DNA of 64,000 bases, from assembly GCA_015521685.1 (NCBI GenBank), contig WANT01000047.1, positions 1 through 64,000 of the forward strand, given 5' to 3'. The translations under genes were made by a program, and so were the position numbers. This DNA is from Aeropyrum sp. (GTDB taxonomy: Archaea; Thermoproteota; Thermoprotei_A; Sulfolobales; Acidilobaceae). How positions within the stretch are numbered: the stretch's first letter is position 1; each line of letters begins with the position of its first letter. Of the stretch, positions 3,192 to 44,084 are shown in pieces. The notes under the pieces are model-generated. The model had not been told where the DNA came from, ran no database searches, and saw only the letters and a program-made list of their open reading frames with translations.

Positions 3192-3824
3192 TTGGCTGTA
3201 GACCCTAGGAAGGTGTTGCCGACTAAGATCAACCTCATCAGGCTAAGGAGAGAGCTGGCTATGATGCGGCGTATAAGGAGGGTAATGGAGGAGAAGAGGG
3301 AGGTAATTCTACACTACATCATAAGCATGGCTGGAGAGTATGTAAGGTACCAGAGGGAGGTTTATGAGGAGATAGAGAGGATCTATACCAACTACTATCT
3401 GGGGGCCGCTGCAGAAGGGCTAGAGAGGGTTAAGGCATACACATCTCCGGTGGAGGGCTCGCTGGAGGTAGAGGTCTCTACGCGAACACTCTTCGCTGTT
3501 AAGACCCCAGTATTCAAGCTGGACGAGGGTAGTATACCCCCTCTATCGCTGCCAGCAGGCTCCGATCCAAAGCTGATGGAGTCTATTCTCTCTATGAGGA
3601 CGATCCTGGAAAAACTATTGAAACTCGCCGAGTATGAGGAGTCTATTCAGAGGCTCGTTAAAGAGCTGAAGGATACTCAGCGTCTAATAAACGCTCTTGA
3701 CTACGTGATCCTGCCTAGCTACCAGGATGCTATAAAGTTCATAAAGCTAGTGCTAGAAGACAGGATGAGGGAAGACTTCGTTAGGCTGAAAATGATAAAG
3801 AGGAAGATGGAAGTGGCTAAATGA
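3192..3824 (+). CDS. atpD: A/V-type ATP synthase subunit D
   Basis: Typical N-terminus ([18 protein letters not shown]), coiled-coil composition, operon position. Confidence 0.93.
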
Positions 3825-3976: not shown

Positions 3977-4225
3977 CTATGGGATCAGCACGCCAACGGC
4001 TAGCAAGAACGCTGCGAGGAGGAACGTCAGCTTGAGTAGTCCAGCGGTGTCTGTGTTTACTGCCGTGTTGAGTATCCTATAAACCACCAGGCCTACTATG
4101 AAGGTCCCAGTGACGGCTAGCAGGCTTATCCCAGCAATCACTAGGTAGTAGCTGATATCAACGCCTCCCTTGAAAGCCAGCTCCTTCAGCAGCTCGTAAG
4201 CCCTCACTAGGTCTGAGAGAGCCAT
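3977..4225 (-). CDS. small two-TM membrane protein, unknown function
   Basis: 82 aa with two hydrophobic helices; convergent with atpD. Confidence 0.6.
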   Translation of the reverse strand: MALSDLVRAYELLKELAFKGGVDISYYLVIAGISLLAVTGTFIVGLVVYRILNTAVNTDTAGLLKLTFLLAAFLLAVGVLIP

Positions 4226-4359
4226 AGCCCTCGCACCGACCTATGATTCTGGTAATAACAGTAAATCCCTAGTACCGGTTCGTAATACGCGGGTAGTATT
4301 TAGCCCTGCGAATCCAGGCTGATAATCCTGGACCTGGACTCTGGTGGCAATGTAAACCG

Positions 4360-4419
4360 GGGATGATGATGGTTAAAAGCACCGATACACTAGATGAGGT
4401 TGGCCAGGACAGCTGACGC
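4360..4419 (+). ncRNA. candidate C/D box sRNA (C ATGATGA 4363-4369, D' CCGA 4382-4385, C' TAGATGA 4391-4397, D CTGA 4413-4416)
   Basis: Ordered C/D'/C'/D boxes with about 12-nt guides in an intergenic region. Confidence 0.7.
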
Positions 4420-4446
4420 GCTACCATTTGGAGGGTGTAGACGGTT

Positions 4447-5148
4447 ATGGTAGGAGGGTCAGAGCCTATCGTGTTGAAAATTAGCGGTAGCCTATTCTAT
4501 CCGCCGAACCCAGATTTTATCAAGTCTGTTGCAGAGTCTGTGGTAGCTTTAACTAATGCCGGATTCAAGCCTGCAGTTGTTGTGGGGGGCGGAGGCCTAG
4601 CTAGAAAGTACATAGGAGTCCTGAGGGAGCTCGGGGTTTCTGAGGCCCTGCTAGACGAGACGGGGATTGAAGCCTCGCGACTAAACGCCTCCTTGCTCGC
4701 GAGAACTCTCTTCCCTCGCTCAAAACCGTATGCTCTAGCATCTCTGAGGGATATTGTGGAAACCCATATTTCTGGCCTCATACCAGTTTCAGGGGGGCTT
4801 CACCCGGGTCAGAGCACAAACGCGGTGGCTGCTCTAATTGCAGAGGCTATAGGTGCTTCGATAATACTTAATGGGCTCAATAGGGTTGGGGGAGTTTATC
4901 GTAGGTGGCCTGTAGAAGATAGTGATGCAAGCCCCATAGAGAGATTGACTTATGGCGAGTTCGAGCGTCTAATATTGGGTGTGACTAGCGATGAGGCTGG
5001 AGGTTATGCTCTCTGGGATAAGGTTGCTCTGAGTATAGCGCGGAGGAGTAGGCTCACTATAGTGTTTTTCGATGCAAGCGATCCGAGAAACATATTGAGG
5101 GCGCTTAAGGGAGAGATCGGCAGTAGAGTGGTCCCTGAGGGTGGCTAG
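4447..5148 (+). CDS. pyrH: archaeal uridylate kinase (amino acid kinase family)
   Basis: VLKISGSLF N-terminus, VVGGGGLARKYI, ETGIEASRLNA. Confidence 0.85.
   Translation: MVGGSEPIVLKISGSLFYPPNPDFIKSVAESVVALTNAGFKPAVVVGGGGLARKYIGVLRELGVSEALLDETGIEASRLNASLLARTLFPRSKPYALASLRDIVETHISGLIPVSGGLHPGQSTNAVAALIAEAIGASIILNGLNRVGGVYRRWPVEDSDASPIERLTYGEFERLILGVTSDEAGGYALWDKVALSIARRSRLTIVFFDASDPRNILRALKGEIGSRVVPEGG

Positions 5149-43971: not shown

Positions 43972-44084
<113 letters not shown>

Follow-up and report, generated by a model that had tools for sequence, protein, structure and literature searches.

In Aeropyrum sp., a short locus near the ATP synthase operon is the gene for a box C/D guide RNA that very probably directs methylation of the wobble base of tRNA-Lys(UUU). 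It occupies positions 4363-4416 (+ strand) of the window, i.e., the whole 64 kb stretch of DNA that was analyzed. Judged from sequence comparison, the full reading, namely a box C/D RNA of ~55-65 nt whose D' guide would specify Um34 in tRNA-Lys(UUU) and whose D guide would specify C1991 of 23S rRNA, appears highly likely to be correct. By the established mechanism of such sRNAs, the C/D and C'/D' motifs form an RNP with L7Ae, Nop5, and fibrillarin, and methylation falls on the target ribose that faces the fifth base before D or D'. If transcribed and assembled into such an RNP, the Aeropyrum sRNA would use its D' guide to bind bases 31-40 in the anticodon arm of tRNA-Lys(UUU), bringing the U34 ribose into the fifth, catalytic position to yield Um34, and its D guide to pair with 23S rRNA, where C1991 (E. 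coli numbering) would be methylated. A plausible decoding effect is that Um34 stiffens the wobble base and so confines the tRNA to AAA, keeping it off the Asn AAY codons that share the box, with tRNA-Lys(CUU) reading AAG beside it. The sRNA is ordinary in kind and notable in its conservation, the breadth of which is the part that a specialist may not know.

Box architecture and genomic setting

A C/D sRNA with this sequence had been proposed in an earlier note on this DNA, and direct reading, the orthologs, and a pattern search all agree with it: a strict C-D'-C'-D pattern matches only once in the 64 kb window, at 4363-4416 (+), and in none of 200 simulated windows (first-order Markov). Reading along the + strand, the C box ATGATGA (4363-4369), whose TGATGA is invariant in an alignment of five orthologs, is followed by the D' guide TGGTTAAAAGCA (4370-4381), the D' box CCGA (4382-4385), a D'-C' spacer that is the most variable part of the alignment (4386-4393), the C' box ATGAGGT (4394-4400), the D guide TGGCCAGGACAG (4401-4412), and the D box CTGA (4413-4416), which is invariant among the orthologs. 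The locus thus has terminal C and D boxes, internal D' and C' boxes that are both degenerate here, and two 12-nt guides. A degenerate D' box, as placed here by the ortholog alignment, is usual; in other lineages this slot reads NNGA or similar, one base after GGTTAAAAGC. The predicted fold of the sRNA is weaker than that of shuffled sequences (z +1.83), and such an unstructured prediction fits the expectation for a guide RNA. A promoter and terminator scan, the models of which are bacterial, gave nothing useful at the locus.

The C' box requires a correction. It had previously been read as TAGATGA (4391-4397), which is probably wrong, since the ortholog alignment places it 3 nt downstream. With TAGATGA as the C' box, the D guide would be 15 nt long and there would be no UGA at the place of the C' box, while ATGAGGT yields 12-nt D guides in all orthologs. 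We therefore took the register from the orthologs, all five of which share the TG and the 12-nt distance to CTGA, even though the resulting C' box in the window is a poor fit to the consensus. This shift leaves the main claim, a guide for tRNA-Lys, untouched.

Upstream of the sRNA is the gene for ATP synthase subunit D (3192-3824, +; Pfam PF01813), also found beside the orthologs, and downstream is a gene of the amino-acid-kinase family (UMP-kinase-like; 4447-5148, +; Pfam PF00696), which starts 31 nt past the D box. Each of the genus's other five genomes contains an ortholog of the sRNA, four of which were found by DNA search (G001, presumably A. camini; G002, presumably A. pernix K1; G003; and G005) and the fifth (G004) by near-match search. 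In the first four, the amino-acid-kinase neighbor is shared and the ATP synthase B and D genes flank the other side of the sRNA, the B gene of G003 and G005 lying outside the stretch or giving no match. Also beside the ATP synthase genes, on the opposite strand (3977-4225, -), is an 82-aa ORF without a Pfam match, the position of which is kept in four congeners and the sequence in part (41-61% over 59 aa).

The locus weakly matches the Rfam family sR21 (RF01137) at 4359-4428 (+), with 29.4 bits against a gathering score of 45 bits, so the window copy falls outside the family as Rfam delimits it. The G002 ortholog, which has the same boxes and the same guides as sR21, matches the model end-to-end with 64.7 bits, above the gathering score, whereas the G001 and G005 orthologs score 34.6 and 34.3 bits respectively, both under 45. 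Hence, we base the orthology of the window copy on synteny and alignment and not on the Rfam score. The sR21 model is narrow: besides placing these three copies under its cut-off, it misses the rest of the family, and thus covers just a fragment of a far larger one.

Predicted guide targets in tRNA-Lys(UUU) and 23S rRNA

No tRNA-Lys(UUU) gene was found when the draft assembly itself was searched, and the tRNA-Lys(UUU) and rRNA targets of both guides, each with the target nucleotide at the fifth base, were therefore read from congeners. The earlier note had inferred the tRNA-Lys(UUU) sequence from the tRNA-Lys(CTT) gene and had proposed to find the tRNA-Lys(TTT) gene in the genome and to check the 10-bp pairing. 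The gene is absent from this organism's own draft and present in the five other genus genomes, where it reads GCGGGCUUUUAACCCG, and in each of these the anticodon arm is GCGGGCTTTTAACCCG, exactly as inferred. Against it, window positions 4371-4380 are fully complementary over 10 bp (bases 31-40), and A4377, the fifth base upstream of D', is opposite U34, as had been claimed. The pairing extends to 11 consecutive Watson-Crick bases (31-41) in the G002 ortholog, and that of the G005 guide is interrupted by a single mismatch, opposite base 37.

The window does contain the gene for the other lysine tRNA, an intron-bearing tRNA-Lys(CUU) (43972-44079, +), which is a near-miss target. Its sole difference from the guide is C34, located at the fifth position, and the longest complementary run through that position collapses. 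As the two lysine tRNAs differ only at the base to be methylated, the guide would separate them at the catalytic position itself. A search of rRNA with the D' guide found no site of comparable complementarity. Both tRNA-Lys introns of A. pernix are reported to lie in the variable arm (PMC4307357), so that bases 31-40 are contiguous in precursor and mature tRNA alike. We also considered a counterpart guide for C34 of tRNA-Lys(CUU), and rejected it as the sole AAGAGC locus (L155) has no C/D architecture.

The D guide, left unassigned in the earlier note, has a match in 23S rRNA: its segment GGCCAGGACAG (4402-4412) is the exact 11-nt complement of CUGUCCUGGCC in the 23S rRNA of G001 and G002. By alignment, its fifth base is opposite position 1988 of the annotated E. 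coli 23S gene, which we take to start 3 bases late, reckoned from the known position C1962; this gives C1991 in standard numbering. Neither 16S nor 23S rRNA was found in the draft assembly, a weak result since the rRNA search also failed in several control genomes. Within the family, several other genera carry an identical D guide. Across lineages, we checked rRNA and the D-loop of tRNA-Lys for a common D-guide target, and found no consistent match outside Aeropyrum and its relatives.

A second, 9-nt complement of the D guide, GUCCUGGCC, occurs in tRNA-Lys introns, namely those of the CUU gene in the window (44003-44079) and of the UUU genes of G001 and G002 (L048, L053). Three relatives that share the D guide (G038, G049, and G053) were searched for it and lack it; for this reason we take the intron match as a coincidence.

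Conservation across the class and alternative readings

The guides of C/D sRNAs are usually replaced quickly from one lineage to the next. We searched 229 genomes of the class, 122 of them classed as good, for the pattern TGATGA-N(0-3)-GGTTAARAGC, with the reversed pattern as a control. The C box and guide are found exactly in 136 of the 229 genomes (88 of the 122 good ones), and the control gave 0 matches. Downstream C' and D boxes are present in 104 of 110 fetched loci compared with 5% of shuffled stretches; two of the six loci that fail this test, L077 and L095, nevertheless resemble C/D sRNAs on visual inspection. A variant with up to two mismatches occurs in 29 of the 34 good genomes that lack an exact match, and all but one (L320) of the 30 variant loci read are C/D sRNA-like. 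The distance from GGTTAAAAGC to the D' box is always one base, which keeps U34 at the fifth position. The tRNA-Lys(UUU) itself is nearly invariant across the class; this near-invariance means that the guide need not change, but does not explain why the sRNA is kept. That one guide has held to a single wobble base throughout the class, with the partner half of the RNA varying, suggests that Um34 has a selected role in lysine decoding at high temperature.

Some of the divergent guides deserve mention. In some genera a G is opposite U36 and a G-U pair is needed, as in the variant GGTTGAAAGC of G165-G170 (L338-L342), also found in G041 and G042, where the base facing U34 is kept. The guide of G047 (L324), GGTTAATAGC, has a mismatch to U34 at the fifth position together with an intact D guide, and the tRNA function may possibly have been lost there.

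A one-genome-per-species scan beyond the class returned 73 stretches, of which four are bacterial; with an estimated 7 random matches expected in the scan, the bacterial ones are at about the level of chance. C/D sRNAs that look complete were found in records titled Njordarchaeota (L235), Methanomethylicota (L236), and Thermofilaceae (L255). In Aigarchaeota-type loci (L198, L207, L223, and L228; L194 is less clear), the Lys(UUU) guide precedes CTGA and is thus at the D position, and another C box and guide are located upstream of it. These observations would fit a scenario in which guidance of Um34 in tRNA-Lys(UUU) is near-universal and ancestral in the class and beyond, the partner guide having been free to vary and the Lys guide having shifted to D in the Aigarchaeota type. 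We give this scenario about an even chance; if true, few known C/D sRNA functions of archaea would be as conserved.

The class-wide pattern also bears on other explanations of the locus. Taken alone, the 10-mer GGTTAANAGC is expected about 0.5 times per window (2 found vs. 0.53 expected, not significant), and the window copy is under the Rfam cut-off, both of which would suit a chance resemblance with no sRNA gene behind it. We thus accept the locus as real because of its architecture plus conservation and not because of the 10-mer, and the same-place orthologs in the genus, one of them with an Rfam match, together with the class-wide conservation and the absence of any match to the reversed pattern, refute chance and leave it a negligible probability. 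Another possibility is that the C/D sRNA is real but has been conserved for the action of its D guide on 23S rRNA, and that the pairing of D' with tRNA-Lys is incidental. The perfect 11-nt rRNA match in G001 and G002 and the sharing of one D guide by several genera within the family are what such a function would lead one to expect, yet across the class it is the D' guide that is kept and the D guide that changes freely without a consistent rRNA target, the opposite of the prediction. The pattern largely refutes this explanation, which we regard as very improbable.

The sRNA could also serve as an antisense RNA or chaperone on the anticodon arm, for example by holding pre-tRNA-Lys during splicing, with methylation not being its main role. 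The 9-nt intron match described above would allow both guides to touch one pre-tRNA, and bases 31-40 are contiguous before as well as after splicing. However, the intron match is missing from three relatives that share the D guide (G038, G049, and G053), most class members read have a different D guide altogether, and the strict spacing of one base before D' is consistent with a catalytic register. An antisense or chaperone role consequently seems quite unlikely, and a methylation guide for U34 of tRNA-Lys(UUU) remains the preferred reading.

Relation to known position-34 guides

The sRNA belongs to a known kind: archaea are known to have guides for the wobble base (PMC7994747), and Rfam already includes one member of the family. 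According to the sources cited here, archaeal C/D sRNAs act on position 34 of tRNA-Leu(CAA), Leu(UAA), Met, and Trp in Pyrococcus, and families of such sRNAs are described in Pyrobaculum (PMC7994747, PMC7668247). In Sulfolobus, U34 of tRNA-Gln(UUG) is a predicted C/D guide target (PMC7994747, PMC7668247), and ribose-methylated U34 is known in other tRNAs (PMC7668247). The Aeropyrum sRNA shares with these guides the C/D mode of guidance, the wobble-base target, and the specificity for a single tRNA; it differs in that these sources name other tRNAs, whereas its predicted target is tRNA-Lys(UUU). No earlier report of a Lys(UUU) guide was found in the papers covered, and the main surveys, such as that of Pyrobaculum sRNAs (NAR 2018), may mention one.

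Two comparisons are more specific. Pyrococcus sR50, the guide in the tRNA-Trp intron, is likewise a C/D guide for tRNA nucleotide 34, but is described as residing inside the intron of its own target (PMC7994747), while the Aeropyrum sRNA has a gene of its own close to the ATP synthase operon. For a tRNA-targeting sRNA of Pyrobaculum, the partner guide is reported without a target (PMC7994747, citing Lui et al., 2018), whereas the partner guide in Aeropyrum fits 23S rRNA. The guide itself makes a precise prediction, Um34 in tRNA-Lys(UUU), and Sulfolobus is genetically tractable. Finally, the C/D sRNA at L335 (G125), one of the 30 variant loci read, carries the guide GGTTAACAGC, which instead of tRNA-Lys(UUU) is complementary to the anticodon arm of tRNA-Asn(GUU) with its fifth base opposite G34, and is likely a paralog for the neighboring codon pair.
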